Of a DNA stretch of 64,000 bases, positions 6,751 to 59,184 are shown piece after piece (within the stretch, counting starts at the first letter, position 1; every line of letters begins with the position of its first letter). A program made the position numbers and the translations under genes. Below the pieces are notes generated by a model. That model searched no databases and had not been told where the DNA came from. It saw only the letters and a list, made by a program, of their open reading frames with translations. The DNA is from Onthophagus taurus (taxonomy: Eukaryota; Arthropoda; Insecta; Coleoptera; Scarabaeidae): NCBI RefSeq assembly GCF_036711975.1, contig NC_091975.1:12278501-12342500 (forward strand). The letters are read 5' to 3'.

Positions 6751-8735
6751 AAAGAGAAATTTTAAAAAAATTATATTTTCTAAATTTTTATGTATAATGA
6801 TATGAAATATATGTTAAATTAAAGCTTGAAGGTTCTAGTTTATGATATGGTGTAAAAATTGTAATATGATATTATTAAAAATTTAAGGAAAAAATTATTG
6901 AAGAAGAAATTGTCAAATTTATAAATAAAAGAAATTTTAAAAAAATTATATTTTCTAAATTGTTATGTATAATGATATGAAATATATGTTAGATTAAAGC
7001 TTGAAAATTCTAGTTTATGATATCATACAAAAATTATAAGATAATATTATTGAAATTTCCAGAAAAAAATTATTAAAGAGGATATTGTCTAATTTATTAA
7101 TCAAAAATTAAAGAAATTTTCAAAAAATCATATCTACTATATTTTTATGAATAATGATATGATATGTGTCTCAAATTGTAGCTTAAACATTCTAGTTTAT
7201 GATGTGATATAGAAAATATAAGATCGTATTATTGAAATTTCAAAGAAATAAACATAAAAATTATAAAATGATATTATTAAAATTTCCTGGAAAATATTAT
7301 TAAAGAGGAGACTCAAATTTATGAATGAAAAATTATACGAAATTTTTAAAAAATCATATCATCTATATTTTTAAAAATCAGAATCAATAACACATATGTT
7401 AAATTGTAGCTTAAACATTCTAGTTTATGATATGATATTAAACTTATAAGATAATTTTACAAAAATTGTAAATGATATTTATAAATGATATTTCATATCA
7501 TTGATAATGATATGAAATATATGTTAAATTAAAGCTTGAAGGTTCTAGTTTATGATATGATTTAAAAATTGTAAGATGATATTAATAAAAATTTGAGGAA
7601 AAAATTATTTTTGAAGAAATTGTTAAATTTATATATAAAATAAAAATTTAAAAAAAATTATATTTCCTAAATTTTTATGGATAATGATATGAAATATATG
7701 TTAAATTAAAGCTTGAAGGTTCTAGTTTATGATGTGATTTAAAAATTGTAAGATGATATTAATAAAAATTTGAGGAAAAAATTATTTTTGAAGAAATTGT
7801 TAAATTTATATATAAAATAAAAATGTTAAAAAAATTATATTTTCTAAATTTTTATGTATAATGATATGAAATATATGCTAAATTAAAGGTTGAAGGTTCT
7901 AGTTTATGATGTGATGTAAAAATTGTAAGATGATATTATTAAAAATTTGAGGAAAAAATTATTGAAGAAGAAATTGTTGAATTTATATATAAAATGAAAA
8001 TTTAAAAAAAATTATATTTTCTAAATTTTTATGGATAATGATATGAAATATATGTTAAATTAAAGCTTGAAGGTTCTAGTTTATGATGTGATTTAAAAAT
8101 TGTAAGATGATATTAATAAAAATTTGAGGAAAAAATTATTTTTGAAGAAATTGTTAAATTTATATATAAAATAAAAATGTTAAAAAAATTATATTTTCTA
8201 AATTTTTATGTATAATGATATGAAATATATGCTAAATTAAAGCTTGAAGGTTCTAGTTTATGATGTGATGTAAAAATTGTAAGATGATATTATTAAAAAT
8301 TTGAGGAAAAAATTATTGAAGAAGAAATTGTTGAATTTATATATAAAATAAAAATTTTAAAAAAATTATATTTTCTAAATTTTTATGGATAATGATATGA
8401 AATATATGTTAAATTAAAGCTTGAAGGTTCTAGTTTATGATGTGATGTAAAAATTGTAAGATGATATTATTAAAAATTTGAGGAAAAAATTATTGAAGAA
8501 GAAATTGTTGAATTTATATATAAAATAAAAATTTTAAAAAAATTATATTTTCTAAATTTTTATGGATAATGATATGAAATATATGCTAAATTAAAGCTTG
8601 AAGATTCTAGTTTATTATATGATATAAAAATTATAAGGTAATATTATTAAAATTTTCAAAAAAAAATTAATTACGAGAAATCTGTCAAATTTATGAAATT
8701 ATAATTATAATTTATGAATTTATTATTTTTTTGAA
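6751..8735 (+). repeat. Satellite A array, block 4
   Basis: Continuation of satellite A. The section at about 7020-7500 is more diverged and resembles the first block. The section at 7500-8600 is homogeneous again. The array decays into unique sequence after about 8640-8735. Confidence 0.9.
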
Positions 8736-12500: not shown

Positions 12501-15500
12501 TTTCATATTTTCGCTTCTTTCTCCATATTAAAGCATCTGACAGCAAAAATGAAAGAGAGCAATATTATTAAGAATTAAATTTGCTACAACTTTTGTTTAA
12601 AAAGTTTTTCTGTAACATGCTCCGATTCCCAAATGTTACCATTAATTGATAAAACAACGAAATTCATCAAATTTTCATATTTTCGCAAATTTCTCCATAT
12701 TGAGACATCTGACTACAAAAATGAAATAGAGCAATATTGTTAATAATAAAATTTGCTACAACCTTTGTTTAAAAAGTTTTTTTGTAATACGCTCCGATTT
12801 ACAAATGTTACCATTAATTGTTAAAACAACGAAATTCATCAAATTTTCATATTTCCGCTTCTTTCTCCATATTGAAGCATCTGACAGCAAAAGTGAAACA
12901 GAGCAATATTGTTAACAATAGAATTTGCTACAACTTTTGTTTAAAAAGTTTTTTTGTAATATGCTCTGATTCCCAAATGTTACCATTAATTGATAAAAAC
13001 AACGAAATTTATCAAATTTTCATATTTTCGTTTCTATGTCCATATTGAAGCATCTGACAACAAAAATGAAAGAGAGGAATATTGTTAATAATAAAATTTG
13101 CTACAACTTTCGTTTAAAAAGTTTTTTTGTAATATGCTTTGATTTTTAGATGTTACCATTAATTAATAAAACAACGAAATTCATCAAATTTTCATATTTT
13201 CGCTTCTTTCTGCATAGTGAAGCATCTGACAGCAAAAATGAAAGAGAGCAATATTATTAAGAATTAAATTTGCTACAACTTTCGTTTAAAAAGTTTTTTT
13301 GTAACATGCTGCGATACCCAAATGTTACCATTAATTTATAAAACAACGAAATTCATCAAATTTTCATATTTTCGCTTCTTTCTGCATAGTGAAGCATCTG
13401 ACAGCAAAAATGAAAGAGAGCAATATTATTAAGAATTAAATTTGCTACAACTTTCGTTTAAAAAGTTTTTTTGTAACATGCTGCGATACCCAAATGTTAC
13501 CATTAATTGATAAAACAACGAAATTCATTAAATTTTCATATTTTCGCTTCTTTCTGCATAGTGAAGCATCTGACAGCAAAAATGAAAGAGAGCAATATTA
13601 TTAAGAATTAAATTTGCTACAACTTTTGTTTAAAAAGTTTTTCTGTAACATGCTCCGATTCCCAAATGTTACCATTAATTGATAAAACAACGAAATTCAT
13701 CAAATTTTCATATTTTCGCAAATTTCTCCATATTGAGACATCTGACAACAAAAATGAAATAGAGCAATATTGTTAATAATAAAATTTGCTACAACCTTTG
13801 TTTAAAAAGTTTTTTTGTAATACGCTCCGATTTACAAATGTTACCATTAATTGTTAAAACAACGAAATTCATCAAATTTTCATATTTCCGCTTCTTTCTC
13901 CATATTGAAGCATCTGACAGCAAAAGTGAAACAGAGCAATATTGTTAACAATAGAATTTGCTACAACTTTTGTTTAAAAAGTTTTTTTGTAATATGCTCT
14001 GATTCCCAAATGTTACCATTAATTGATAAAAACAACGAAATTTATCAAATTTTCATATTTTCGTTTCTATGTCCATATTGAAGCATCTGACAACAAAAAT
14101 GAAAGAGAGGAATATTGTTAATAATAAAATTTGCTACAACTTTCGTTTAAAAAGTTTTTTTGTAATATGCTTTGATTTTTAGATGTTACCATTAATTAAT
14201 AAAACAACGAAATTCATCAAATTTTCATATTTTCGCAAATTTCTCCATATTGAGACATCTGACAACAAAAATGAAAGAGAGCAATATTGTTAATAATAAA
14301 ATTTGCTACAACCTTTGTTTAAAAAGTTTTTTTGTAATACGCTCCGATTTATAAATGTTACCATTAATTTTTAAAAGAACGAAATTCATCAAATTTTCAT
14401 ATTTTCGCTTCTTTCGCTATATTGAAGCATGTGATGGCAAAAATGAAAGAGAGCAATATTGTTAATAATAAAATTTGCTACAACTTTCGTTTAAAAAGTT
14501 TTTTTGTAACATGCTGCGATACAAAATGTTACCATTAATTGATAAAACAACGAAATTCATCAAATTTTCATATTTTCGCTTCTTTCTGCATAGTGAAGCA
14601 TCTGACAGCAAAAATGAAAGAGAGCAATATTATTAAGAATTAAATTTGCTACAACTTTCGTTTAAAAAGTTTTTTTGTAACATGCTGCGATACCCAAATG
14701 TTACCATTAATTTATAAAACAACGAAATTCATCAAATTTTCATATTTTCGCTTCTTTCTGCATAGTGAAGCATCTGACAGCAAAAATGAAAGAGAGCAAT
14801 ATTATTAAGAATTAAATTTGCTACAACTTTCGTTTAAAAAGTTTTTTTGTAACATGCTGCGATACCCAAATGTTACCATTAATTGATAAAACAACGAAAT
14901 TCATCAAATTTTCATATTTTCGCTTCTTTCTGCATAGTGAAGCATCTGACAGCAAAAATGAAAGAGAGCAATATTATTAAGAATTAAATTTGCTATAACT
15001 TTCGTTTAAAAAGTTTTTTGTAACATGCTGCGATACCCAAATGTTACCATTAATTGATAAAACAACGAAATTCATCAAATTTTCATATTTTCGCTTCTTT
15101 CTGCATAGTGAAGCATCTGACAGCAAAAATGAAAGAGAGCAATATTATTAAGAATTAAATTTGCTATAACTTTCGTTTAAAAAGTTTTTTGTAACATGCT
15201 GCGATACCCAAATGTTACCATTAATTGATAAAACAACGAAATTCATCAAATTTTCATATTTTCGCTTCTTTCTGCATAGTGAAGCATCTGACAGCAAAAA
15301 TGAAAGAGAGCAATATTATTAAGAATTAAATTTGCTACAACTTTTGTTTAAAAAGTTTTTTTTGTAATATGCTCCGATTCCCAAATGTTACCATTAATTG
15401 ATAAAACAACGAAATTCATCAAATTTTCATATTTTCGCTAATTTCTCCATATTGAAGCATCTGACAGTAAAAATGAAAAAGAGCAATATTGTTAAGAATG

Positions 15501-15555
15501 AAATTTGCTACAACTTTTGTATTAAAACTTTTTTTCTAAAACGTTCCAAATTTCT
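9577..15555 (+). repeat. Satellite B array, about 35 monomers of 172 bp
   Basis: Tandem 172-bp monomers with landmarks 'gttaccattaattgataaaa', 'cgcttctttctccat' and 'tttgctacaacttt'. Repeat starts step by 172 or 344 bp (11098, 11270, 11442, 11786, 12130). Between 11442 and 12400 two monomer types alternate, giving a 344-bp dimer. The segment from about 12670 recurs at about 13700 (offset 1033 bp, six monomers). Most monomers have an open frame of 76-89 codons because stops are sparse in one frame; the frames overlap each other and are not genes. Confidence 0.95.
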
Positions 15556-35439: not shown

Positions 35440-38400
35440 TTACTACATACGTACTATCATATCATATACTGAAATATTTAAGCTTCAATTTAACATCTAT
35501 ATCATATTACAATTCTCAAAAATACAATAGATATGATTTTTTGAAATTTTTTTTTTACCTTTACTACATAATTTAACAATTTCTTCTTTAATACTATTTT
35601 CCAGGAGATTTCAATAATATCATCTAATAGTTTTTATATCACACCATAAACTAGAATCTTTAAGCTTCAATTTAACATACATATCATATCACAATTCTTA
35701 AAAATACAGTAGATATGATTTTTTGAAAATTTCGTATTATTTTTTATTAATAATTTGACAATTTTTTCTTTAATATTTTCCAGGAAATTTCAATAATATC
35801 ATCTAATAGTTTTTATATCACATCATAAACTAGAATCTTCAAGCTTTGATTTAGCATATATTTCATATCATTATACACAAAAATATAGAAAATATGATTT
35901 TTTGAAAATTTCTCTTTTATTTATAAATTTGATAATTTCTTCTTCAATAATTTTTTCCTAAAATTTTTAATAATATCATATTACAATTTTCATATCATAT
36001 CATAAACTAGAATCTTCAAGCTTTAATTTAGCATATACTTCATATCATTATACATAAAAACATAGAAAATTTGATTTTTTGAAAATTCCTCTTTTATTTA
36101 TAAATTTGACAATTTCTTCTTCAATAATTTTTTCCTCAAATTTTTAATAATATCATCTTACAATTTTCATATCATATCATAAACTAGAATCTTCAAGCTT
36201 TAATTTAACATATATTTCATATCATTATACATAAAAATATAGAAAATATGGTTTCTTGAAAATTTCTCTTTTATTTATAAATTTAACAATTTCTTCTTCA
36301 ATAATTTTTTCCTCAAATTTTTAATAATATTATATTACAATTTTCATATTATATCATAAACTAGAATCTTTAAGCTACAATTTAACATATATATTATATC
36401 ATAATTCTTAAAAATACAGATGATATGATTTTTTGAAAATTTCGTATAATGTTTGATTTCATCTTTAATAAGTTTTTCCAGAAAATTTCACTTATATTAG
36501 GTTATAATTTTTATATCATATCATAAACTAGAATCTTTAAGCTACAATTTAACATATATATTATATCATAATTTTTAAAAATAGAGATGATATGATTTTT
36601 TGAAAATTTCGTATAATGTTTGATTTCATCTTTAATAAGTTTTTCCAGAAAATTTTACTTATATTAGGTTATAATTTTTATATCATATCATAAACTAGAA
36701 TCTTTAAGCTACAATTTAACATATATATTATATCATAATTCTTAAAAATAGAGATGATATGATTTTTTGAAAATTTCGTATAATGTTTGATTTCATCTTT
36801 AATAAGTTTTTCCAGAAAATTTTACTTATATTAGGTTATAATTTTTATATCATATCATAAACTAGAATCTTTAAGCTACAATTTAACATATATATTATAT
36901 CATAATTCTTAAAAATAGAGATGATATGATTTTTTGAAAATTTCGTATAATTTTTGATTTCGTCTTTAATAAGTTTTTCCAGGAAATTTTACTTATATTA
37001 GCTTATAATTTTTATATCATATCATAAACTAGAATCTTTAAGCTACAATTTAGCATATATATTATATCATAATTCACAAAAATACAGATGATATGATTTT
37101 TTGAAAATTTCGTATAATGCTTGATTTCATCTTTAATAAATTTTTCCAGGAAATTTTAATAATATTAGATTATAATTTTTATATGATATCATAAACTAGA
37201 ATCTTTAAGCTACAATTTAACATATATATTATATCATAATTCTCAAAAATACAGATGATATGATTTTTTGAAAATTTCGTATAATTTTTGATTTCGTCTT
37301 TAATAAGTTTTTCCAGGAAATTTTACTTATATTAGCTTATAATTTTTATATCATATCATAAACTAGAATCTTTAAGCTACAATTTAACATATATATTATA
37401 TCATAATTCTCAAAAATACAGATGATATGATTTTTTGAAAATTTCGTATAATGCTTGATTTCATCTTTAATAATTTTTTCCAGGAAATTTTAATAATATT
37501 AACTTATAATTTTTATATCATATCACAAACTAGAATCTTTAAGCTACAATTTAAAATATATATCATATCATGATTCTTAAAAATGCGAATGATATGGTTT
37601 TTGAAAATTTCGTGTTCTTTTAGATTTATAAATATGACAATTTCTTCTTCAACAATTTATTCCTAGAAATTTCATTAATATTATGTCATTGCTTTTATAT
37701 CATATCATAAACTACAATCTTTAAGCTTCAATTTAACATACAAATCATTTTTGAAAATTTCGTAATCTTTTTAACAATTTCTTCTTCAACAATTTATTCC
37801 TGGAAATTTCATTAATATTACCTTATAGTTTTTATATCATATCATAAACTACAATCTTTAAGCTTCAATTTAACACACAAATTATATCATAATTCTAAAA
37901 AATGCAGATGATATAGTTTTTTGAAAATTTTGTAATCTTTTTGACAATTTCTTTTTCAATAATTTATTCCTGGAAATTTCATTAATATTACCTCATAATT
38001 TTTATATCATATCATAAACTACAATCTTTAAGCTTCAATTTAACATATATTTCATATCATTAGACATAAAAATGTAGAAAATATGATTTTTTGAAAATTT
38101 CTCTTTTATTTATAAATTTGACAATTTCTTCTTCAATAATTTTTTCCTCAAATTTTTAATAATATCATATTACAATTTTCATATCATATCATAAACTAGA
38201 ATCTTCAAGCTTTAATTTAGCATATACTTCATATCATTATACATAAAAACATAGAAAATTTGATTTTTTGAAAATTTCTCTTTTATTTATAAATTTAACA
38301 ATTTCTTCTTCAATAATTTTTTCCTCAAATTTTTAATAATATTATATTACAATTTTCATATCATATCATAAACTAGAATCTTCAAGCTTTAATTTAGCAT

Positions 38401-39160
38401 ATATTTCATATCATTATACATAAAAATTTAGAAAATATGATTTTTTGAAAATTCCTCTTTTATTTATAAATTTAACAATTTCTTCTTCAATAATTTTTTC
38501 CTCAAATTTTTAATAATATCATATTACAATTTTCATATCATATCATAAACTAGAATCTTCAAGCTTTAATTTAACATATATTTCATATTATTATACACAA
38601 AAATATAGAAAATATGATTTTTTGAAAATTTCTCTTTTATTTATAAATTTAACAATTTCTTCTTCAATAATTTTTTCCTCAAATTTTCAATAATATCATA
38701 TTACAATTTGCATATCATATCATAAATTAGAATCTTCAAGCTTTAATTTAACATATATTTCATATCTTTATACATAAAAATATAGAAAATATGATTTTTT
38801 GAAAATTTCTCTTTTATTTATAAATTTGACAATTTCTTCTTCAATAATTTTTTCCTAAAAATTTCAATTATATCATATTACAATTTTTATATCATATCAT
38901 AAACTAGAATCTTCAAGCTTTAATTTAGCATATATTTCATATCATTATACATAAAAACATAGAAAATATAATTTTTTAAAAATTTCTTTTTATTTATAAA
39001 TTTGACAATTTCTTCTTCAATAATTTTTTCCTCAAATTTTTAATAATATTGTATTACAATTTTCATATCATATCATAAACTACACTCTTTAAGCTTCAAT
39101 TTAACATATATATCATATCATAATTCTCAAAAAACAGTAGATATGATTTTTTGAAAATTT
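35440..39160 (-). repeat. Satellite A array in inverse orientation, about 21 monomers
   Basis: The reverse complement of the family at 1-8735. Two subtypes are present. One (36361-37560) has a 167-bp step and the phrase 'agaatctttaagctacaatt'. The flanking one has a step of about 177 bp and 'agaatcttcaagctttaatt', closest to the homogeneous blocks at the left edge of the window. The order short-diverged, long, short-unit, long suggests nested amplification. Confidence 0.93.
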
Positions 39161-40744: not shown

Positions 40745-41008
40745 ATAGTTCAAAATCAAATCGGAGCGTGTTATCAAAAAACTTTTAAAACAAAAGTTGT
40801 TGTAAATTTTGTTCTTAACAATATTGCTCTCTTGCATTTTTGCTCTTAAATGCGTCAATATCGTGAAAAATAAGAAAATATCAAAATTTTATGAATTTAT
40901 TGCTCTTTCAAGTTATTATAGGTAACACTTGGGAATCGGAGCATGTTACAAAAAAACTTTTAGAACAATAGTTGTAGCAAATTTTATACTTAGCAATATT
41001 CCTCTCTT
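40745..41008 (-). repeat. Satellite B' fragment left of the foldback element
   Basis: About 1.5 monomers of a diverged satellite B ('caaaagttgttgtaaattt', 'tcttaacaatattgctctct'). The last monomer breaks at 'tagcaatattcctctctt' and resumes at 47203, showing that the 6.2-kb element was inserted into a pre-existing B' array. Confidence 0.88.
41000..41008 (+). repeat. 9-bp target-site duplication, left copy
   Basis: TCCTCTCTT immediately precedes the element terminus ACTGGTGTGAAG. The same nine bases follow the other terminus at 47203-47211. Joining the flanks with one copy restores a normal B' monomer ('gcaatat' + TCCTCTCTT + 'ttacttttgctctcag'). Confidence 0.9.
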
Positions 41009-43975
41009 ACTGGTGTGAAGTTATCCATAAATCCCAGCAATAAACTTAAAACATTAATAATTCCGTAACCAATACGATTTGGGTAACCAAATTTCACACA
41101 CAGGTCACTCTTACCCTCAAGAACAGCTAACCACCCCCATTTGGTAAAAAAAAAAATTTTCAACCCTCACCCCCGAAAAAGGGATGTTTTCGCCCTGATG
41201 GGCACCTTCGAATTAAACGAAATTCTACCACATAATAGAACACACTTCTAAGTATTTTTATCAATTTTCAAAACACCGTAAGCCCTAACGGTTTTCGAGA
41301 AAAAAAATCAGTATTATAAACCGCGGATGGGACTTTAGGGGTGAATTTGACCCCGTTGGGCACCTTCAAAATTGATGAAATTTTAGGATGATTTAGAGGA
41401 TGCCTTTAGCGATTGAAATCAACCATCCAAACACCGTAATGTATTACGGTTTCCGAGAAAAAAAATGTGTTATTAGACACTATAGGTATACAGCGCGGCG
41501 CGGACTTTGGGGGTGAATTTGACCCCGTTGGGCACCTCCAAAATTGACGAAATTTTAGGATGATTTAGAGGATGCCTTTAGCGATTGAAATCAACCATCC
41601 AAACACCGTAATGTATTACGGTTTCCGAGAAAAAAAATGTGTTATTAGACACTATAGGTATACAGCGCGGCGCGGACTTTGGGGGTGAATTTGACCCCGT
41701 TGGGCACCTCCAAAATTGACGAAATTTTAGGATGATTTAGAGGATGCCGTTAGCAATTGAAATCAACCATCCAAACACCGTAAGGTATAACGGTTTCCGA
41801 GAAAAAAAATGTGTTATTAGACACTATAGGTACACAGCGCGGCGCGGACTTTGGGGGTGAATTTGACCCCGTTGGGCACCTCCAAAATTGACGAAATTTT
41901 AGGATGATTTAGAGGATGCCTTTAGCGATTGAAATCAACCATCCAAACACCGTAATGTATAACGGTTTCCGAGAAAAAAAATGTGTTATTAGACACTATA
42001 GGTATACAGCGCGGCGCGGACTTTGGGGGTGAATTTGACCCCGTTGGGCACCTCCAAAATTGACGAAATTTTAGGATGATTTAGAGGATGCCTTTAGCGA
42101 TTGAAATCAACCATCCAAACACCGTAATGTATTACGGTTTCCGAGAAAAAAAATGTGTTATTAGACACTATAGGTATACAGCGCGGCGCGGACTTTGGGG
42201 GTGAATTTGACCCCGTTGGGCACCTCCAAAATTGACGAAATTTTAGGATGATTTAGAGGATGCCTTTAGCGATTGAAATCAACCATCCAAACACCGTAAT
42301 GTATTACGGTTTCCGAGAAAAAAAATGTGTTATTAGACACTATAGGTATACAGCGCGGCGCGGACTTTGGGGGTGAATTTGACCCCGTTGGGCACCTCCA
42401 AAATTGACGAAATTTTAGGATGATTTAGAGGATGCCGTTAGCAATTGAAATCAACCATCCAAACACCGTAAGGTATAACGGTTTCCGAGAAAAAAAATGT
42501 GTTATTAGACACTATAGGTACACAGCGCGGCGCGGACTTTGGGGGTGAATTTGACCCCGTTGGGCACCTCCAAAATTGACGAAATTTTAGGATGATTTAG
42601 AGGATGCCTTTAGCGATTGAAATCAACCATCCAAACACCGTAATGTATAACGGTTTCCGAGAAAAAAAATGTGTTATTAGACACTATAGGTATACAGCGC
42701 GGCGCGGACTTTGGGGGTGAATTTGACCCCGTTGGGCACCTCCAAAATTGACGAAATTTTAGGATGATTTAGAGGATGCCTTTAGCGATTGAAATCAACC
42801 ATCCAAACACCGTAATGTATAACGGTTTCCGAGAAAAAAAATGTGTTATTAGACACTATAGGTATACAGCGCGGCGCGGACTTTGGGGGTGAATTTGACC
42901 CCGTTGGGCACCTCCAAAATTGACGAAATTTTAGGATGATTTAGAGGATGCCTTTAGCGATTGAAATCAACCATCCAAACACCGTAATGTATAACGGTTT
43001 CCGAGAAAAAAAATGTGTTATTAGACACTATAGGTATACAGCGCGGCGCGGACTTTGGGGGTGAATTTGACCCCGTTGGGCACCTCCAAAATTGACGAAA
43101 TTTTAGGATGATTTAGAGGATGCCTTTAGCGATTGAAATCAACCATCCAAACACCGTAATGTATTACGGTTTCCGAGAAAAAAAATGTGTTATTAGACAC
43201 TATAGGTATACAGCGCGGCGCGCACTTTGGGGGTGAATTTGACCCCGTTGGGCACCTCCAAAATTGACGAAATTTTAGGATGATTTAGAGGATGCCTTTA
43301 GCGATTGAAATCAACCATCCAAACACCGTAATGTATTACGGTTTCCGAGAAAAAAAAAGTGTTATTAGACACTATAGGTATACAGCGCGGCGCGGACTTT
43401 GGGGGTGAATTTGACCCCGTTGGGCACCTCCAAAATTGATGAAATTTTAGGATGATTTAGAGGATGCCTTTAGCGATTGAAATCCACCATCCAAACACCG
43501 TAAGGTATTACGGTTTCCGAGAAAAAAAATGTGTTATTAGACACTATAGGTACACAGCGCGGCGCGGACTTTGGGGGTGAATTTGACCCCGTTGGGCACC
43601 TCCAAAATTGACGAAATTTTAGGATGATTTAGAGGATGCCTTTAGCGATTGAAATCAACCATCCAAACACCGTAATGTATTACGGTTTCCGAGAAAAAAA
43701 ATGTGTTATTAGACACTATAGGTATACAGCGCGGCGCGGACTTTGGGGGTGAATTTGACCCCGTTGGGCACCTCCAAAATTGACGAAATTTTAGGATGAT
43801 TTAGAGGATGCCTTTAGCAATTGATATCAACCATCCAAACACCGTAATGTATTACGGTTTCCGAGAAAAAAAATGTGTTATTAGACACTATAGGTACACA
43901 GCGCGGCGCGGACTTTGGGGGTGAATTTGACCCTGTTGGGCACCTCCAAAATTGATGAAATTTTAGGATGATTTG
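41009..43975 (+). repeat. Left inverted arm: terminal segment plus 16 units of satellite E (172 bp)
   Basis: The outer 330 bp is followed by 16 occurrences of the 'ccccgttgggcacc' box. The first (41355) and last (43935) are 2580 bp apart, exactly 15 x 172, so there is no net indel. Each unit holds the near-palindrome CCGTAATGTATTACGG, a 'gcgcggcgcgg' tract, and 'aattttaggatgatttagag'. The outermost unit is diverged ('cgtaagccctaacgg'). The variant 'gatgccgttagcaattg' occurs at 41743 and 42431 (688 bp, four units), revealing a higher-order period. Confidence 0.95.
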
Positions 43976-44030
43976 GAGGGCGGACTTTTGATAGAAAAAA
44001 AACTTTTGATAGAGAAAGAAATTTATTATA

Positions 44031-44791
44031 TTAATGGTCTGTTTTACTTATAATTAAATTGTGTAATGGATTGAGAATATGATTATAATTACTTGCTACC
44101 GCGTTCCAGACCGTTTCCAACCCTTGTTCATTTAAGTAAATGCCATCCCTGTGTAGAAATTTGTATTAAATACATAAGAAAAGAAACATTTTTACGTTTT
44201 GTTACCCTTCCATCATGGTTCTGTTAACAATTGCTTCAATGTCGGTACAATTGATTTGCTTTTCAGCACAAAACCGTCGAATGTAATGATTGATTTCCTA
44301 TAAAGGCATGGAGAGTATTTATTTATAGCATGACAGAGAAGTTATAATATCTTACGTTCACAGACTCGAAGTTTTTGCAGGGAGGAATTGTGCAAATTTG
44401 TATTCCTTTAGGATTTAAGGAAAGAAGGAAGCGGAAGAGGTGAGAATATTGGGACTTCAGTTGGGATGGTGATGTTTTATAGAGTATATCTTTAGTTCTT
44501 ATCATTATAACGATATGACGTTCAACAATATCTCCACAAAACCAAGGGTAACATGTTTTTGGAATATACTTTGCGCGCCGCAAAAGTTTTAGTATTGTTT
44601 GACCGCCTACTGCTAAGTCGAGGAAATATTTTCCGTTGCTTGACTGTTTTGGTTGTCGTCCTAAAATATATACCATTAGTAGGAATTAATTTCACATTTG
44701 TTTGAACAAATACTTTGTAGTTAGTTCTCGTACGTAGCATTCGGCAAAAATTACTATCGCCCAAAAACAGTAATTTCGTCGACATCTTCAC
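44031..44791 (-). CDS. SGNH/GDSL hydrolase-like protein inside the foldback element
   Basis: Four exons by eye on the minus strand (44791-44734, 44660-44356, 44297-44206, 44148-44031) with GT/AG introns of 57-73 bp give an uninterrupted 190-residue protein ending in TAA. SGNH-like blocks appear in order: FLGDSN (nucleophile Ser13), DLAVGG (Gly38/39), IMIRTKD at about 72-77 where the family normally has GxND, TIPPC, and DGIYLN at 153-158 where DxxH is expected. The oxyanion Asn is thus Lys and the catalytic His is Tyr, as in inactive SGNH folds such as the OSK domain of Oskar. The family call is from motif pattern only. Function inside a transposon is unknown: captured host gene, element-encoded accessory, or domesticated gene later enclosed by repeats. 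A further upstream exon may exist near 44880-44960. Confidence 0.6.
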
Positions 44792-45224
44792 TGGTCACTG
44801 GTTTTAACAAGAGATAACTAGAACAGCTGATCTCTGCAATAGCTGAGGAATCTTTATATATTATAAGTTTACTCCTCACCTTTCGGGCAAAATCTAAAAA
44901 ATGTGTATGACGCTCTAAAACAACACCGAATAAGTCGGCAACTATTTTCCCGGAATGCACTTATAATGCAAAAAATATGGACATATTTTTTCCTTAATAC
45001 CTGCGCCTTTTGTAACTGCACGTGGCGGAGTTCTTACCCTTTGCCAGTAACGACTAAAAGCCCATAAAACTACAAAATGCCTTTCTTAACAAAATTTATT
45101 TTTTCCATGAAATATTAAGAGTTCTATTAAATATTAAGAGATCTATTAAAATCGCTAAAGGCACCTACTATCTGCTCTACATACGTGTACAATTTAATAA
45201 CGAAATTGTTTCTCTGAAGCCGTG
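44792..45224 (-). other. Upstream part of the element core, possible extra exon
   Basis: The minus strand is open from about 44960 to 44754 in a different frame from the SGNH gene (PGKIVADLFGVVLERH... then FARK followed by a gtgagg donor-like site). This could be a 5' coding exon ending near 44880 and spliced to an acceptor before the ATG at 44791, or just leader sequence. From 44990 to 45224 I see no gene; a short satellite E scrap ('aaatcgctaaaggcacct') lies near 45149-45166. Confidence 0.35.
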
Positions 45225-47202
45225 GTCGGTGTTTGGATGGTCGATTTAAATTGCTAAAGGCATCCTCTAAATCATCCTAAAATTTCATCAATTTTGGAGG
45301 TGCCCAACGGGGTCAAATTCACCCCCAAAGTCCGCGCCGCGATCTGTACCTATAGTGTCTAATAACACATTTTTTTTCTCGGAAACCGTAATACATTACG
45401 GTGTTTGGATGGTTGATTTCAATCGCTAAAGGCATCCTCTAAATCATCCTAAAATTTCGTCAATTTTGGAGGTGCCCAACGGGGTCAAATTCACCCCCAA
45501 AGTCCGCGCCGCGATCTGTACCTATAGTGTCTAATAACACATTTTTTTTCTCGGAAACCGTAATACATTACGGTGTTTGGATGGGTGATTTCAATCGCTA
45601 AAGGCATCCTCTAAATCATCCTAAAATTTCGTCAATTTTGGAGGTGCCCAACGGGGTCAAATTCACCCCCAAAGTCCGCGCCGCGCTGTGTACCTATAGT
45701 GTCTAATAACACATTTTTTTTCTCGGAAACCGTTATACCTTACGGTGTTTGGATGGTTGATTTCAATTGCTAACGGCATCCTCTAAATCATCCTAAAATT
45801 TCGTCAATTTTGGAGGTGCCCAACGGGGTCAAATTCACCCCCAAAGTCCGCGCCGCGCTGTATACCTATAGTGTCTAATAACACTTTTTTTTTCTCGGAA
45901 ACCGTAATACATTACGGTGTTTGGATGGTTGATTTCAATCGCTAAAGGCATCCTCTAAATCATCCTAAAATTTCGTCAATTTTGGAGGTGCCCAACGGGG
46001 TCAAATTCACCCCCAAAGTCCGCGCCGCGCTGTATACCTATAGTGTCTAATAACACATTTTTTTTCTCGGAAACCGTTATACATTACGGTGTTTGGATGG
46101 TTGATTTCAATCGCTAAAGGCATCCTCTAAATCATCCTAAAATTTCGTCAATTTTGGAGGTGCCCAACGGGGTCAAATTCACCCCCAAAGTCCGCGCCGC
46201 GCTGTATACCTATAGTGTCTAATAACACATTTTTTTTCTCGGAAACCGTTATACATTACGGTGTTTGGATGGTTGATTTCAATCGCTAAAGGCATCCTCT
46301 AAATCATCCTAAAATTTCGTCAATTTTGGAGGTGCCCAACGGGGTCAAATTCACCCCCAAAGTCCGCGCCGCGCTGTATACCTATAGTGTCTAATAACAC
46401 ATTTTTTTTCTCGGAAACCGTAATACATTACGGTGTTTGGATGGTTGATTTCAATCGCTAAAGGCATCCTCTAAATCATCCTAAAATTTCGTCAATTTTG
46501 GAGGTGCCCAACGGGGTCAAATTCACCCCCAAAGTCCGCGCCGCGATCTGTACCTATAGTGTCTAATAACACATTTTTTTTCTCGGAAACCGTAATACAT
46601 TACGGTGTTTGGATGGGTGATTTCAATCGCTAAAGGCATCCTCTAAATCATCCTAAAATTTCGTCAATTTTGGAGGTGCCCAACGGGGTCAAATTCACCC
46701 CCAAAGTCCGCGCCGCGCTGTGTACCTATAGTGTCTAATAACACATTTTTTTTCTCGGAAACCGTTATACCTTACGGTGTTTGGATGGTTGATTTCAATT
46801 GCTAAAGGCATCCTCTAAATCATCCTAAAATTTCATCAATTTTGAAGGTGCCCAACGGGGTCAAATTCACCCCTAAAGTCCCATCCACGGTTTATAATAC
46901 TGATTTTTTTTCTCGAAAACCGTTAGGGCTTACGGTGTTTTGAAAATTGATAAAAATACTTAGAAGTGTGTTCTATTATGTGGTAGAATTTCGTTTAATT
47001 CGAAAGTGCCCATCAGGGCGAAAACATCCCTTTTTCGGGGGTGAGGGTTGAAAAATTTTTTTTTTACCAAATGGGGGTGGTTAGCTGTTCTTGAGGGTAA
47101 GAGTGACCTGTGTGTGAAATTTGGTTACCCAAATCGTATTGGTTACGGAATTATTAATGTTTTAAGTTTATTGCTGGGATTTATGGATAACTTCACACCA
47201 GT
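45225..47202 (-). repeat. Right inverted arm: 10 units of satellite E plus terminal segment
   Basis: The inverse of the left arm. The box 'ggtgcccaacgggg' recurs from 45301 to 46849 (1548 bp, exactly 9 x 172), giving ten units before the diverged terminal unit and the unique end. The arms therefore differ by six units. Some units have 'cgcgatctgtacc' in place of 'cgcgctgtatacc'. The terminal segment has an open frame running out into satellite B' (47048-47242), judged a chance frame. Confidence 0.95.
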
Positions 47203-47211
47203 TCCTCTCTT
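47203..47211 (+). repeat. 9-bp target-site duplication, right copy
   Basis: TCCTCTCTT directly after the terminus CTTCACACCAGT, identical to 41000-41008. Confidence 0.9.
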
Positions 47212-50200
47212 TTACTTTTGCTCTCAGATGCATAGATATTGAGAAAAATACGAAATTATGAAAATTTGATGGATTTCGTTGTTTTACTAGATGTTAGGGT
47301 CACACTTGGGAATTGAAGCGTCTTACAAAAAAACTTTTAGAACAATAGTTGTAGCAAATTTTATCCTTAGCAATATTGCTCTCTTGCACTTTTGCTCTTA
47401 GATGCGTAAATATCGAGAAAAATACGAAAATGTGATGAATTTCCTGGTTTTACTATTAGCTAATGGTAATATTCGGGAATCGAAGCATGTTACAAAAATA
47501 CTTTTAGAACAAAAGTTGTAACAAATTTTGTTCTTAACAATATTGCTCTCTTGTATATTTGCTCTCAGATTCGTCAATATTGAGAAAAATACGAAAATAT
47601 GAAAATTTGACCAATTTTTTTGTTTTACTAGAGTTGATGGAAACATTTAGGAATCGGAACATGTTATCAAAAAACTTTTAAAACAAAAGTTGTAGCAAAC
47701 TTTGTTCTGAGGAATATTGCTCTCTTATATTTTTGCTCTCAGATGCGTCAATATCGAGAAAAATACGAAAATATGAAAATTTGATGAATTTCCTTGTTTT
47801 ACTATTAGCTAATGGTAACATTCGGGAATCGAAGCATGTTACAAAAATACTTTTAGAACAAAAGTTGTAGCAAATTTTGTTCTTAACAATATTACTCTCT
47901 TGTATATTTGCTCTCAGATTCGTCAATATCGAGAAAAATACGAAAATATGAAAATTTGACGAATTTTTTGTTTTACTAGTGTTAATGGTAACATTTAGGA
48001 ATCGAAGCATGTTATCAAAAAACTTTTAAAACAAAAGTTGTAGCAAACTTTGTTCTAAGAAATATTGCTCTCTTATATTTTTGCTCTCAGATGCGTCAAT
48101 AACAAAATACGAAAATATGAAAATTTGATGATTTTCTTTGTTTTACTATTAGTTAATGGTAACATTCGGGAATCGAAGCATGTTACAAAAATACTTTTAG
48201 AACAAAAGTTGTAGCTAATTTTATTCTTAACAATATTGCTCTCTTGTATATTTGCTTTCAGATTCGTCAATATTGAGAAAAATACGAAAATTTGATGAAT
48301 TTCTTTGTTTTACTATTAGCGAATGGTAACATTCGGAAATTAAAGCATGTTACAAAAATACTTTTAGAACAATAATTGTAGCAAAATTTATTCTTAACAA
48401 TATTGTTCTCTTTCGCTTTTGCTCTCAGATGTATCAATATCGAGAAAACACAAAAATGCGAAAATTTTATTAACTTGTCGTTTTACTTGCTCTTAATAGT
48501 AACATTTGAGAATTGGAGCATGTTATCAAAAAAGTTTTATAACAAAAATTGTAGCAAATTTTGTTCTTAACAATATTGCTCTCTTGTACATTTGCTCTCA
48601 GATTCGTCAATATTGAGACAAATACAAAAAATTGAAAATTTGATGAATTTCCTTGTTTTACTATTAGCTAATGGTAATATTTGGAAATCGGAGCATGTTA
48701 TCAACAAATTTTTAGAACAAAAGTAGTAGCAAATTTTATTCTTACCACTACTGCTCTGTTGTATTTTTGCTCTCAGAAGCATCAATATTGAGAAAAATAA
48801 GAAAAACTTTAAAATTTGATGATTTTAGTTGTTTTACTAGTAGTTAGTGGTAGCACTCGGAAATCGGAGCATGATACAAAAAAAATTTTAGAACAAAAGT
48901 TGTAGCAACTTTTCTTCTTACCAATATTGCTCTGTTGTATTTTTGCTCTCAGATGCGTCAATATTGAGAAAAATGCGAAAATATGAAAATTTGAAGAATT
49001 CGCTGTTTTACTACAAGTTAATAGGTAGCACTCGGGAATCGGAGCAAGTTAGAAAAAAACTTTTAGAACAAAATTTGTTGCAAATTTTGTTCATAACAAT
49101 ATTGCTCTCTTCTATTCTTGCTCTCAGATGCGTCAATATTGAGAAAAATACAAAGATATGAAAATTTGATGTTTTTTGTTGTTTTACTACAAGTTGATGG
49201 GTAGCACTCGGGAATCGGAGCATGTCATCAAAAAACTTTTAAAACAAAAGTTGTAGGAAATTTTATTCTTACCAATATTGCTCTGTTGTATTTTTGCTCT
49301 CAGAAGCATCAATATTGAGAAAAATGCGAAAATATGAAAATTTGAAGAATTCGTTGTTTTACTACAAGTTAATGGGTAGTACTCATGAATCGGAGCTTGA
49401 TACAAAAAAACTTTTAGAACAAAAGTTGTAGCAAATTCTATTCTTACCAATATTGCTCTGTTGTATTTTTGCTCTCAGATGCGTCAATATTCAGAAAAAT
49501 GCGAAAATATGAAAATTTGAAGAATTCGTTGTTTTATTAGTAATTAATGGTAGCACTCGAAAATCTGGACATGATACAAACAATTTTTTGAAGAAAAGTT
49601 ATAGCAAATTTTATTTTTACCAATAATATGCGTCAATATTGAAAAAATAAGAAAAACTTTTAAATTTTATGATTTTAGTTGTTTTACTAGTAATTAATAG
49701 TAGCACTCGAAAATCCGAGCTTGATATAAAAAATCATTGCAACCAGATTTATGGGAATTAAGAATTTATTTATGGCACACTAAAAATGCGTTAAGTTAGC
49801 TTCAAAATGACATAGAGTTCACTATGATATCGCAATTAGTTTCTGAGATACGATTTAATCAATCTTATAATTAACAAATTGGATGAATTTATTGCATTTA
49901 TTGCATAATAGTAACATTTGGGAATCGGAGCGTATTACAGAAAAACTTATGAAATAAAAGTTATAGCAAATTTTATTCTTAACAATATTGCTCTCTTTAA
50001 TTTTTGCTCTCAGAGGCGTCAATATTGAAAAAAATATGAAAATTGGATGAATTTATTGCATTTATTGCATAGTGGTAATATTTGGGAAACGGAGTATATT
50101 AAAAAAAAAATTTGAAACAAAAGTTATAGCGAATTTTATTCTTAACAATATTGGTCTCTTTCATTTTTGCTCTCAGAGGCGTCAATATTGAAAAAAATAT

Positions 50201-53499: not shown

Positions 53500-55564
53500 G
53501 CTATGATATACTTGATAATGTCTGAATTTGTGTCTAAATGTTCCCAACTATTTCCAAGTGAGTCTAAATATATGTCTAAATGTCCCCAATTGATTCAAAG
53601 TCTGTCTAAATATTCCCAATTGCTTCAAAGTTATGTCTAAATGTGTCCAATTGATTCCTAGAGTGCCTAAATTTGTATCTAAATGTCCCCAAATACTTCC
53701 AAGTATGTCTAAATGTTCCCAACTGTTTCCAAGTGAGTCTAAATGTATGTCTAAATATCCCCAATTGATTCAAAGTGTGTCTAAATATTCCCAATTGCTT
53801 CAAAGTTATGTCAAAATGTGTCCAATTGATTCCTAGAGTGTCTAAATTTGTATCTAAATGTCCCCAAATACTTCCAAGTATGTCTAAATGTTCCCAACTG
53901 TTTCCAAATGAGTCTAAATGTATGTCTAAATGTCCCCAATTGATTCAAGATGTGTCTAAATGTTCCCAATTGATTCAAAATGTGTCTAAATGTTCCCAAC
54001 TATATTCTAGTGAGTCTAAATATATGTCTAAATGTCCCCAATTGATTCAAAATGTGTCTAAATATTCCCAATTGCTTTTAAGTGTGTCTAAATGTGTCCA
54101 ATTGATTCCAAGAGTGTCTAAATTTGTGTCTAAATGTCCCCAATTGTGCCCAACTGCTTCTAAATGTGTCTAAAGGTGTCTAAATGTGTTCGAAATAGAT
54201 TAAAAAAATTTTTTTTTGTACAAAAAGGATCCCAATTCATATTTTATGCAAGAATTATGCAAGTTTAGATACAGATTTATTTATATTAATGATCTCTCCT
54301 TGTTTTGTGGTAATCGGCTCATCTTCAGGAACAATTTTAATCGAATTAGAATTAAAAAAAATTAAGTACATTAAATTTAGAACATAAAAAAGTTTATTTC
54401 TTTTTTTTTGTCACCAAGTGAGTCTAAATGTATGTCTAAATGGTCCCAACTGGTTCAAAGTTTGTCTAAATATTCCCAAATGCTTCTAAGTATGTCTAAA
54501 TGTGTCCAATTAATTCCAAGAATGTCCAAATTTGTATCTAAATGTTCCCAATTATTTCCAAGTGAATCTAAATGTATGTCTAAATATCCCCAATTGATTC
54601 AAAGTATGTCTAAATGTTCCCAATTGCTTCTTAATGTGTCTAAATGTACCTAATTGATACCATGAATGTCTAAATTGGTATCTAAATGTTCCCAACTATT
54701 TGCAAGTGAGTCTAAATGTATGTCTAAATGGCCCCAATTGATTCAAAGTGTATCTAAATGTTCCCAATTGCTTCAAAATGTGTCTAAATGTATCTAATTG
54801 ATACTAAGAGTGTCTGAATTTGTGTCTAAATGTCTCCAATTGTGTCCAAATGTGTCCAATTGATTCCAAAAATGTTTGAATTTGTATCTAAATGTCCCCA
54901 AATGCTTCCAAGTATATTTAAATGTTCCCAACTATTTCCTAGTGAGTTTAAATGTATGTCTAAATGTCCCCAATTGATTCAAAGTGTATCTAAATATTCC
55001 CAATTGCTTCAAAATGTGTCTAAATGTACCTAATTGATACTAAGCGTGTCTGAATTTGTGTCTAAATGTCTCCAATTGTGTCTAATTGATTCCAAGTATG
55101 TTTGAATTAGTATCTAAATGTCCCCAAATGCTTCCAAGTATATTTAAATGTTCCCAACTATTTCCTAGTGGGTTTAAATGTATGTCTAAATATTCCCAAT
55201 TGCTTCTAAATGTGTCTAAATGTACCTAGTTGATACTAAGAGTGTCTGAATTTGTGTCTAAATGTCTCCAATTGTGTCCAAATGTGTCCAATTGATTCCA
55301 AAAATATTTGAATTTGTATCTAAATGTCCCCAAATCCTTCCAAGTATATTTAAATGTTCCCAACTATTTTGTAGTGAGTTTAAATGTTTGTCTAAATGTC
55401 CCCAATTGATTCAAAGTGTGTCTAAATGTTCCCAATTGCTTCAAAATGTGTTTAAATGTACCTAATTGATACTAAGAGTGTCTGAATTTGTGTCTAAATG
55501 TCCCCAAATGCTTCCAAGTACATTTAAATGTTTCCAACTATTTCCTAGTGAGTCTAAATGTATA
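53500..55564 (+). repeat. 30-bp minisatellite, block 1
   Basis: Tandem variants of a 30-bp unit (tctaaatgtccccaattgat + about 10 bases), mixed with 12-bp short units (tctaaatgtatg). Because 30 and 12 are multiples of three, translations show a repeated 10-residue motif (SKCPQLIQSV) and long open frames up to 132 codons. These begin and end inside the repeat, occur on both strands, and have no promoter, signal or splice context, so I treat them as non-coding. Confidence 0.93.
54176..54410 (+). repeat. Non-repetitive island 1 within the minisatellite
   Basis: About 235 bp of unique sequence ('aaaggatcccaattcatatt', then 'ggtaatcggctcatcttcag') interrupts the minisatellite. It recurs at 57803-58040 with high similarity, so it was part of a duplicated segment. 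The second copy has an open frame with a short non-repeat peptide, but the two copies do not keep the same frame. A relic exon is possible but unproven. Confidence 0.75.
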
Positions 55565-55936
55565 AAAGGGATGAAATTCTCCATATTTCTCAATAAAATA
55601 TATAAAAAAATAGAAAAAGTAAAAACTTTTTGTGAGAAATAATTAAATATTAAAATTCATAAGTTTATTTCCAATATTTCTAAATGTTTTATTTTCATTT
55701 TTAACAAAAAGAAAACCTATATAGAAATAATTTTATTTTTTAAGAAAATTTGCTAAAAAATTTACTAAGATATTCCCAATTTATTTATATTTTTGTATTT
55801 TTTCCATCATTTTGCATATATTTTCAAGTACTGAAGATGAAACAATCGTTTCGAAACATGTCTGCTCTTTAATAATAAATTTTAATATTTAATTATTTCT
55901 CACAAAAAGTTTTTACTTTTTCTATTTTTTTATATA
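55565..55936. mobile_element. Small TIR element inserted in the minisatellite
   Basis: Inverted repeats of about 58 bp: the left arm from 55599 (tatataaaaaaatagaaaaa...) matches the inverse of the right arm ending at 55936. The phrase gtctaaatgtat flanks both sides, which may be target sequence or simply the repeat unit. The interior includes 'gaaacaatcgtttcgaaaca' near 55838, a phrase with its own inverted symmetry. No coding capacity. Confidence 0.7.
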
Positions 55937-56120
55937 GTCTAAATGTATGTCTAAATGTCCCCAATTGATTCAAAGTGTGTCTAAATGTTCCCAATTGCTG
56001 CTAAGTGTGTCTAAATGTACCCAATTGATTCCAAGATTGTTTAAATTTGTATCTAAATGTCCCCAAGTATATCAAAAGGTTCCCAATTATTTCCATGTGA
56101 GTCTGAATGTCCCCAATTAA
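55937..56120 (+). repeat. Minisatellite remnant
   Basis: Six or so degenerate 30-bp units continue after the small TIR element and end at an AT-only run near 56120-56160. Confidence 0.85.
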
Positions 56121-56159
56121 TTTATATATTAATTATATTAATATATATTATTATATTAT

Positions 56160-57105
56160 ATTAATATTTAGAAGAAATAATAAATAAAATCGATTTTAAA
56201 TATTCTGCCTCGGCCGCAAGCGACCTCGGCTATGATTATATACCAAGATCATGACGGATTGTCTTTGATGAGTGTGATATATGATGAGCAAAATTGTCTA
56301 AAATTAATATTTAGAAGATGTAATAAATAAAATCGATTTTAAATATTCTGCCTCGGCCGCAAGCGACCTCGGCTATCATTATATGTCAAAATCATGAAGG
56401 ATTGTCTTTGATGAGTGTGATATATGATGGCCAAAATTATCTAAAATTAATATTTACAAGATGTAATAAATAAAATCGATTTTAAATATTCTGCCTCGGC
56501 CGCAAGCGACCTCGGCGGAGTGAAGAAAGCGATAGGTATAAATACAAAGTCAGAAATTATTGTTTCAAAATGGTTATATACATATACAGGGTGAGTTATT
56601 AATGTCGATAACTACTAAATAGAAAAAAATTTTTTAAACCAAAGTTGCACATTATACAGCGTGTTCATAAAACAATAAATTTCGATTTTTTCTTTTAAAA
56701 ATTTTTTTTAACGGAACACCCTGTATATTATCCCCTGATTGAATTCTACATCAAATTCCCTTTAATTAATTATAACTATGTCATATATCTAACTTTATTA
56801 GTTCTCCTGATATTTAGAATTTAAAAAAAATGTGTAATTACACTTTATGAACACCTGTATGGTGCATCTAATATCTTTGGATGCTAATGTAATAATAAAT
56901 TTAATTGGATTCATAACCTGATGAAATATATAGGACGTTGTATTTAAAAAAATTTACTTACTTGCGGTTACGCATAAACGGAACAGCCTGTATAAGTGAA
57001 AATAATTTTGCTTTGTAGAAAGTGGTGAGTCAAACAACTTTTGTATAAAACATTTTGTTCTATCTCAAATGGTTCAGTAACTATATAATTCGCCCTGTAT
57101 ATACA
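56160..57105. mobile_element. Second composite MITE cluster
   Basis: Three tandem partial units of about 140 bp (near 56170, 56310, 56450) each carry 'attctgcctcggccgcaagc'. Then come the TACAGGGTG end and a third copy of the 450-bp element (56655-57100). The arrangement repeats 52781-53392 at a constant offset of 3712 bp, so it arose by segmental duplication rather than independent insertion. Confidence 0.78.
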
Positions 57106-57129
57106 GGGTGTTTCTGTAAATCGTGTCAT

Positions 57130-58950
57130 AAATTTAATTTAAATACTTGGAATGTCTGTATTTGTGTCTAAATGTTCCCAACCATTTCCAAGTGAGTCTA
57201 AATGTATGTCTAAATATCCCCAATTGATTCAAAGTGTGTCTAAATATTCCCAATTGCTTCTAAATGTGTCTAAATATGTCCAATTGATTCCTAAAATGTC
57301 TGAATTTGTGTCTAAATGTTCCCAACTACTTCCAAGTATGTCTAAATGTTCCCAACTGTTTCCAGGTGAGTCTAAATGTATGTCTAAATGTCCCCAATTG
57401 ATTCAAAGTGTGTCTAAATGTTCCCAACTATATTCTAGTGAGCCTAAATATATGTCTAAATGTTCCCAATTGATTCAAAGTGTGTCTAAATATTTCCAAT
57501 TGCTTCAAAGTTGTGTCTAAATGTGTCCAATTGATTCCAAGAATGTCTAAATTTGTATCTAAATGTCCCCAATTGATTCAAAATGTGTCTAAATGTTCCC
57601 AACTATATTCTAGTGAGTCTAAATATATGTCTAAATGTCCCCAATTGATTCAAAGTGTGTCTAAATATCCCCAATTGATTCAAAGTGTGTCTAAATATTC
57701 CCAATTGCTCCTAAGTGTGTCTAAATGTGTCCAATTGATTCCAAGAATATCTAAATTTGTGTCTAAATGTCCCCAATTGTGCCCAACTGCTTCTAAGTGT
57801 GTCTAAATGTGCTCGAAATAGATTAAAAAAAATTTTTTTGAACTACAAGGATCCCAATTCATATTTTATGCAAGAATTATGCAAGTTCAGATACAGATTT
57901 ACTTATATTAATGATCTCTACCGGTTTTGTGATAATCGGCTCATCTTCAGGAACAATTTTAATTGAATTAGAATTAAAAAAAATGAAGTACATTAAATTT
58001 AGAACATGAAAAAGTTTATTTACTTCGTCTTTTTTGTTACCAAGTGAGTCTAAATGTCCCCAATTGATTCAAAGTGTGTCTAAATGTTCCCAATTGCTTC
58101 TAAGTGTGTCTAAATGTACCCTATTGATTCCAGGAATGTCTAAATTGGTAGCTAAATGTTCCCAACTATTTCCAAGTGAGTCTAAATGTATGTCTAAATG
58201 GCCCCAATTGATTCAAAGTGTGTCTAAATGTTCCCAATTCCTTCAAAATGTGTCTAAATGTATCTAATTGATACTAAGAGTGTCTGAATTTGTGTCTAAA
58301 TGTCTCCAATTGTGTCCAAATGTGTCCAATTGTGTCCAAATGTGTCCAATTGATTCCAAAAATGTTTGAATTTGTATCTAAATGTCCCCAAATGCTTCCA
58401 AGTATATTTAAATGTTCCCAACTATTTCCTAGTGAGTTTAAATGTATGTCTAAATGTCCCCAATTGATTCAAAGTGTGTCTAAATGTTTCCAATTGCTTC
58501 AAAATGTGTCTAAATGTACCTAATTGATACTGAGAATGTCTAAATTTGTGTCTAAATGTCCCCAATTGTGTCTAATTGATTCCAAGAATGTTTGAATTTG
58601 TATCTAAATGTCCCCAAATGCTTCCAAGTATATTTAAATGTTTCCAACTATTTCCTAGTGAGTCTAGATGTGTGTCTAAATGTCCCCAATTGATCAAAAT
58701 GTGTCTAAATATACCTAATTGATACTAAGAGTGTCTGAATTTGTGTCTAAATGTCCCCAATTGTGTCTAATTGGTTCCAAGAATGTTTGAATTTGTATCT
58801 AAATGTCCCCAAATGCTTCCAAGTATATCTAGATGTTCCCAACTATTTCCTAGTGAGTTTAAATGTATGTCTAAATGTCCCCAATTGATTCAAAGTGTGT
58901 CTAAATATTCCCAATTGCTTCAAAATGTGTCTAAATGTACCTAATTGATA
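57130..58950 (+). repeat. 30-bp minisatellite, block 2
   Basis: The same units as block 1, with the same interruption (island at 57803-58040). Open frames of 60-122 codons are repeat-derived, as in block 1. The array is cut at 58955 by a retrotransposon LTR. Confidence 0.93.
57803..58040 (+). repeat. Non-repetitive island 2 within the minisatellite
   Basis: A copy of 54176-54410 at an offset of about 3.63 kb, with scattered substitutions and small indels (for example 'gtacaaaaaggatccc' becomes 'aactacaaggatccc'). Confidence 0.75.
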
Positions 58951-58955
58951 CTAAG

Positions 58956-59184
58956 TGTTTAGGCAACCCAAATAACAAACCAAATTTTATGTAACCATGA
59001 CAATTTTGTCGATTTCAAATGTTACAAATAAAACAAGCAGCCATCATTGTATTCGTTATTAAAACGACGCCTTTTATTCGATCCTCTGAAGAATTCAACT
59101 TAGAACCCCAATTCAAGTAAGAAATTTCCAATTTTTCTTTCGAACCAACACCTACAATTATTCCCGACATTTGTCGCGCGAACA
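58956..59184 (+). repeat. 5' LTR of the BEL/Pao element
   Basis: About 229 bp starting TGTTTAGGCAACCC and ending GCGCGAACA, so the ends are TG...CA. An AATAAA hexamer lies at 59027-59032. The limits are inferred from the break in the minisatellite and from the primer-binding site two bases downstream; they need the 3' LTR for proof. Confidence 0.7.

Follow-up and report, generated by a model that had tools for sequence, protein, structure and literature searches.

Structure of the element

The 64,000-nucleotide stretch of the Onthophagus taurus genome that we analysed (contig NC_091975.1, positions 12,278,501 to 12,342,500; referred to here as the window) contains a complete foldback transposon at positions 41009–47202, the core of which carries a gene for a protein of the SGNH hydrolase type. 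The 9-bp target-site duplication of this element is perfect, with TCCTCTCTT adjoining each end (41000–41008 and 47203–47211), as the original prediction, made by inspection of the window, had stated. The arms pair over 1976 nt (41009–42984 with 45227–47202) with 98% complementarity and, as the left repeat array extends to position 43979, they measure 2971 nt on the left and 1976 nt on the right. Both consist mostly of tandem 172-bp units (15.4 copies at 98% matches on the left and 9.6 copies at 97% matches on the right), in agreement with the 2.97 and 1.98 kb given earlier. Joining the flanks after removal of one copy of the duplication yields a satellite sequence that aligns to the neighbouring array with no gap at the join. 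The parts of the locus are as follows.

41000–41008, no strand: left 9-bp target-site duplication, TCCTCTCTT (end comparison and duplication survey)
41009–41329, plus strand: left terminal segment, beginning with ACTGGTGTGAAGTTATCC; its inner portion represents a diverged 172-bp unit
41330–43979, plus strand: left arm, 15.4 tandem 172-bp units (arm complementarity and tandem-repeat analysis)
43980–45226, minus strand: unique core, 1247 bp in the window copy and 1244 bp in the 33-copy consensus
44714–44785, minus strand: SGNH gene exon 1, start codon and GDSN block with Ser11 (exon 1 and intron 1 putative)
44356–44643, minus strand: SGNH gene exon 2, GG block and RTKD at the place of the canonical GTND
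44206–44297, minus strand: SGNH gene exon 3 (public model agrees)
44031–44148, minus strand: SGNH gene exon 4, DGIY at the place of the canonical DGIH, and stop codon
45227–46881, minus strand: right arm, 9.6 tandem 172-bp units, inverted (arm complementarity and tandem-repeat analysis)
46882–47202, minus strand: right terminal segment, inverted
47203–47211, no strand: right 9-bp target-site duplication, TCCTCTCTT

Aligned to the 172-bp unit, the inner portion of the terminal segment scores 92, the highest of 200 shuffles being 39. As this portion is a diverged unit, the element probably built its arms by duplicating its own subterminal sequence, which suggests an origin from the element's own end of the kind proposed for the foldback element Tetris. 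Four open reading frames (ORFs) of at least 60 amino acids touch the element, of which three overlap the SGNH gene on its strand and the fourth (64 amino acids) crosses the right end; neither a transposase nor a reverse transcriptase is found among them. A comparison with Rfam returned nothing at gathering level. The analysis supports the original description of the locus, a mobile element of foldback type that has an SGNH-type gene and lacks a transposase of its own.

Copies of the element across the genome

In the genome (290.8 Mb in 33 contigs), the terminal 46-mer has 195 matches with at most three mismatches (93+102), compared to none for the reversed control, and the exact 31-bp terminus occurs 164 times (58+106). 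The 159 termini used for pairing comprise 158 listed ones of these 164 and one from the 46-mer search, about 36 of the 195 lying outside the pairing set. They resolve into 67 paired elements, 2756–21484 bp long (median 5680 bp), and 25 single termini. Of the 67 pairs, 66 contain an SGNH match. Eight of the single termini have such a match no more than 12 kb away on their inner side, and the other 17 have none. The SGNH gene is thus the standing core of the family and not cargo peculiar to the window copy; this corrects the capture reading of the original prediction, whose alternative, a lineage making use of such a protein, is possible.

Twenty-one complete elements were read, namely the window copy and L039–L058. 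Their target-site duplications are exact and 9 bp long in 17 cases and exact and 8 bp long in three, and L056 has none; compared across different elements, the duplications matched in two of 420 comparisons. Anchor-matched 172-bp units number 2–16 per side, with unequal left and right counts in most elements. The family thus displays two structural features of foldback elements, long inverted arms that consist largely of tandem repeats and vary between copies, and target-site duplications at multiple insertion sites (exact at 8 or 9 bp in 20 of 21 elements).

In a comparison that kept 332 of 401 units, the remainder being too different in register, similarity within an arm (4.7 differences between neighbours) only slightly exceeded that between elements (5.9 differences in a sample). 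The genome holds 1565 unit matches (with places for the first 100), which, as a rough comparison, is what about 90 elements at 17 units each would contain. The 50 terminal segments that were read are nearly identical. In 33 copies, 44 private noncoding changes were counted over 674 sites, or roughly 0.2% for each copy, which makes the burst of amplification recent.

Several further loci were encountered. L003 carries, at positions 2430–3332, a terminus with roughly 930 bp of element sequence, followed by unrelated sequence, with no SGNH match within 12 kb; it could be a truncated copy or one with another core, and the latter was rejected after inspection, as L003 shows arm only before the unrelated sequence begins. 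On contig C7, four SGNH block III matches on one strand (30797051, 30809580, 30821794 and 30835195) are about 12–13 kb apart with none of the listed termini close by; a degenerate copy may have been multiplied there by segmental duplication. A second family sharing a common 16-bp tip was looked for and its matches with up to two mismatches (26+18) are at chance level (control 33+36); one exact match to the tip lies at C5:11787036.

The SGNH gene and its two subfamilies

The minus-strand gene of the window copy has GT..AG introns and an uninterrupted frame of 189 residues followed by a stop codon; its four exons and intact frame are as predicted, and the 190 residues previously given had counted the stop. 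The closest public protein is P0001 (LOC111429034, Onthophagus taurus, 176 amino acids), with 96% identity over 90% of the query. It crosses the predicted exon 2–3 and 3–4 junctions, and its model begins within the predicted intron 1, thereby lacking exon 1 and the GDSN block. Exon 1 and intron 1 are putative, and the first 50 bases of exon 1 have 79 genome matches within three mismatches. Searches for wider relatives returned only P0001, among 55 and 75 candidates, and the best match to a solved structure is unconvincing (E 0.49).

The window protein scores 23.0 bits against the Pfam profile Lipase_GDSL_2 (cut-off 32.9), compared to 46.2 bits for a composite canonical form; against the OSK profile (cut-off 27) the values are 17.9 and 25.7 bits, the latter also below the cut-off. 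Among the catalytic Ser, Gly, Asn and His, the window copy retains Ser11 and the Gly; Lys75 replaces Asn and Tyr155 replaces His. The consensus of 33 cores of this type (subfamily 1) encodes an intact protein of 189 residues. Twenty-nine of the 33 frames were scored as intact and four as broken (L030, L031 and L036 by stops, and L034), a share biased upwards because the copies were taken from among the 40 that match the window best. L034 is in effect whole, since the 6 bases inserted at the frame's end give a protein that finishes with KTDR and a stop; L037, scored as intact, has a damaged intron 1 donor.

A second subfamily carries the canonical residues. Over the stretches that they share with the core, L004 and L065 have 95.3% and 96.0% identity to the window copy, and both encode DGIH in place of DGIY. 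Of this pair, only L004 extends over block III, where it has GTND, whereas the window copy and the 33-copy consensus have RTKD and DGIY. The L004 frame is broken near codon 61 by a 2-bp deletion, a form found at one place in the genome; one other subfamily 2-type copy has the same shortened spacing. The terminal segments of the subfamily 2 elements L004, L005 and L008 differ from that of the window copy by one base in 332. The 4–5% divergence of the cores of the two subfamilies (the L004 and L065 parts) thus contrasts with a far lower divergence of their terminal segments, hinting at conversion or recombination between copies.

Genome-wide, GTND-type matches comprise 24 exact ones, four with one mismatch and 61 with two or three, and DGIH-type matches comprise 26 exact ones and 61 others. 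When the states at the 89 block III sites are linked, outside the fetched copies as mismatch counts and not as letters, 22 sites combine P2, GTND and an exact DGIH, and 48 combine S2, block III at two or three mismatches and a block V that is not exact, which is the type of the window copy. Two sites have S2 and GTND with a non-exact block V, and 17 are mixed or incomplete. The copies read of the non-canonical subfamily lack the catalytic Asn and His, so that, judged by these pattern matches, the catalytically deficient form appears as the commoner subfamily (48 versus 22 sites). Subfamily 2 is taken as ancestral because its canonical residues fit the SGNH consensus. The two sites with intermediate states suggest that His was probably lost first and Asn thereafter. 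As the form with the defective active site is the commoner one, esterase catalysis in cis seems to be dispensable for amplification.

Constraint on the reading frame

Within subfamily 1 we observed 25 nonsynonymous, two stop and 11 synonymous variants, compared to 42.6, 3.1 and 12.1 expected from noncoding rates; pseudocounts inflate this expectation, and about 50 in all would follow from the noncoding density itself (59 in 674). The shortfall of nonsynonymous variants does not reach significance (p=0.11 and 0.22). Between the subfamilies there are seven nonsynonymous changes (in about 393 sites) and four synonymous ones, compared to 11 in 164 noncoding sites (p=0.006), a test from which seven L004 changes (codons 56–66 around the deletion, and 150) were dropped by judgement. 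Counting all L004 changes gives p=0.11, and L065 alone gives p=0.06. Four of the between-subfamily changes that were kept lie outside L065, and those at residues 73 and 75 were confirmed in other copies. Three of the seven nonsynonymous changes fall in active-site blocks (post hoc p of about 0.001). Taken together, these comparisons are weakly suggestive of constraint on the frame.

Repeats elsewhere in the window

Satellite arrays of about 167–177 bp occur in opposite orientations at 9578–15539 and 47205–49625 and at 1483–8694 and 35455–39160, with about 79–81% identity over 2.4–2.8 kb; the element sits inside one of them. The claim that nothing else in the window resembles the element therefore holds for the element itself and not for the satellites, other arrays of which are likewise inverted. 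Within the window, nothing outside the element truly matches its 172-bp unit (best E 0.021). At 53531–58958, a minisatellite of about 30 bp (TGTCTAAATGTCCCCAATTGATTCAAAGT type) forms long, irregular arrays with several higher-order periods.

Mobilisation of the family and role of the SGNH protein

Duplications made by the Mutator superfamily are about 8–11 bp long, typically 9 bp, and those of the beetle family fall in this range (17 of 21 exactly 9 bp and three exactly 8 bp). Tabulated Mutator-type entries show 9–11 bp (PMC6446971). Because of the 9-bp duplications and the foldback arms, together with the literature on Tm1 and Tetris (PMC3169594, PMC4079207), we took Mutator membership as a lead. 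The explanation that we hold to be probable, though well short of certain, is that of a young non-autonomous foldback family, probably of Mutator type, that is mobilised in trans and whose SGNH gene was fixed in its founder. A DDE transposase, for which the Mutator clade is the likeliest source, would act in trans on the terminal segment, excising the element and reinserting it with a 9-bp stagger, as the cut-and-paste mode of its class would have it. The inner terminal segment would have been duplicated in tandem to give the 172-bp units, which then expand and contract copy by copy, possibly serving as extra transposase sites. The SGNH gene would have entered the founder between the arms and been copied along since; an earlier form with canonical blocks would have given rise to a derived one in which loss of His was probably followed by loss of Asn and which nevertheless came to be the larger subfamily. 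The SGNH protein may then be a passenger or a non-catalytic helper, and we lean towards a passenger or a weakly maintained accessory.

Several observations weigh against this explanation. No transposase was identified, so that Mutator-type mobilisation in trans is something that we infer: a family-encoded MULE-type DDE transposase was found neither among the ORFs of the window copy nor near the 159 termini. None of the 16 genome hits to the MULE domain (PF10551) lies within 87 kb of any of these termini, and five of the 16 loci, compared to the element, gave chance-level matches only (best E 0.17). The copy with a transposase that the original prediction had proposed to look for did not turn up in these comparisons. 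The paired element at C7:32248755–32256339 (7585 bp) has no SGNH match and, like all elements beyond the 21 that were read, is known by its place, length and pattern matches. Finally, some constraint on the frame hints at more than a passenger role.

We consider unlikely a reading in which the SGNH protein is a maintained accessory, now non-catalytic, that binds, for example, lipid, RNA, chromatin or the transposase, a role of the kind proposed for retrotransposons with an esterase. The SGNH match in 66 of 67 pairs, the 29 of 33 copies scored as intact (and L034, in effect whole) and the three of seven changes in active-site blocks, as if catalysis had been dropped and the frame kept, all argue for it, as do two precedents, the ORF1 esterase of ZfL2-1 (PMC3905857) and the GDSL derivatives of Athena-L without catalytic residues (PMC5408684). 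The between-subfamily deficit does so as well at p=0.006, after the exclusion by judgement of seven L004 changes, but not at p=0.11, with all of them counted, or at p=0.06, on L065 alone; the deficit within subfamily 1 is not significant, the sampling from the best 40 matches favours intact copies, and copies this young do not allow a strong test. It is somewhat unlikely, and would be compatible with the explanation that we prefer, that an autonomous member within the family, either the 7.6-kb C7 element or an unpaired copy, encodes the transposase. An SGNH match is indeed missing from one of the 67 pairs and from 17 of the 25 single termini, and in Tm1 one element, Tm1-A, is described as encoding the transposase (PMC3169594), but no MULE-domain hit lies near the C7 element or any terminus used, and its length is within the range of ordinary long-armed copies, so that it may consist of arms only. 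That the locus is a host SGNH gene between inverted satellite arrays, with no transposon involved, would fit a window full of such arrays. We rejected this as next to inconceivable given near-identical termini, terminus matches in scores of places, duplications that differ from one insertion to another, and continuous satellite at the gapless empty site; the single shared location that would have spoken for a host gene was not seen.

Beyond the preferred trans-mobilised family, we raise as a doubtful idea that the transposon cycle makes use of the SGNH protein, the family having retained the protein while losing its catalysis; a pseudo-enzyme form would have outgrown the enzyme form, with the transposase coming from elsewhere. 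Equally doubtful, as part of the same idea, such a non-catalytic helper might tether the element or the transposase to a membrane, RNA granule or chromatin. If true, a foldback lineage would rely on a non-catalytic SGNH helper and a transposase supplied elsewhere.

Comparison with known systems

Tetris and Tm1 are, from the available descriptions, the nearest published foldback elements. Tm1, a Mutator/Foldback family of root-knot nematodes (PMC3169594), has variable-length composite inverted repeats, 9-bp duplications and mostly non-autonomous members, some with non-transposase content (a histone-hairpin motif). Unlike the beetle family, in which none was found, it includes a copy with a Phantom-type transposase, and the available part of its description names no SGNH gene; the two are likened by description and not by sequence. 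Tetris of Drosophila virilis (PMC4079207) has tandem arm units of about 220 bp, proposed to derive from part of its terminal domain, and 8–10-bp duplications, and no copy with a transposase is reported to have been found. It is described as having no conserved ORFs, whereas nearly every beetle pair carries the same gene, and its units also form free satellite-like arrays, whereas the beetle unit total roughly fits the elements alone. Rehavkus (PMC6446971) shares 9-bp duplications, a minisatellite beside the terminal repeat and hosts that include arthropods; it is described with one transposase ORF containing a PHD finger, none of which was seen here, where no sequence search was aimed at Rehavkus.

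Among the titles and abstract openings listed from the open-licence literature, none describes an SGNH core in a family of foldback or other inverted-repeat DNA transposons (Repbase being outside the search), and the literature on SGNH/GDSL proteins and mobile elements yields the fish texim–Helitron case and retrotransposon esterases. CR1/L2-type and rotifer retroelements are not known to have inverted arms. The ORF1 esterase of ZfL2-1 and other CR1/L2 elements (PMC3905857) and the GDSL ORF3 of rotifer elements (PMC5408684) likewise place an SGNH domain in a mobile element, and the Athena-L derivatives are reported to lack catalytic residues (PMC5408684), but these are RNA-based elements with a reverse transcriptase. 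The texim genes associated with fish Helitrons (PMC4021074) are likewise multi-intron SGNH hydrolase genes in a DNA transposon lineage, and the authors of that study raise the same two options, a helper or a mobilised gene. Their carrier is a rolling-circle element whose own coding region lies close by, whereas the beetle family has foldback arms, a subfamily without two catalytic residues and no transposase found. SGNH proteins thus recur in unrelated mobile elements, the CR1/L2 retrotransposons, rotifer retroelements and fish Helitrons, with a role that, in the accounts available, is proposed only; the presence of canonical-block and non-canonical subfamilies in one beetle genome provides a natural test of how much the enzyme activity matters to the element.

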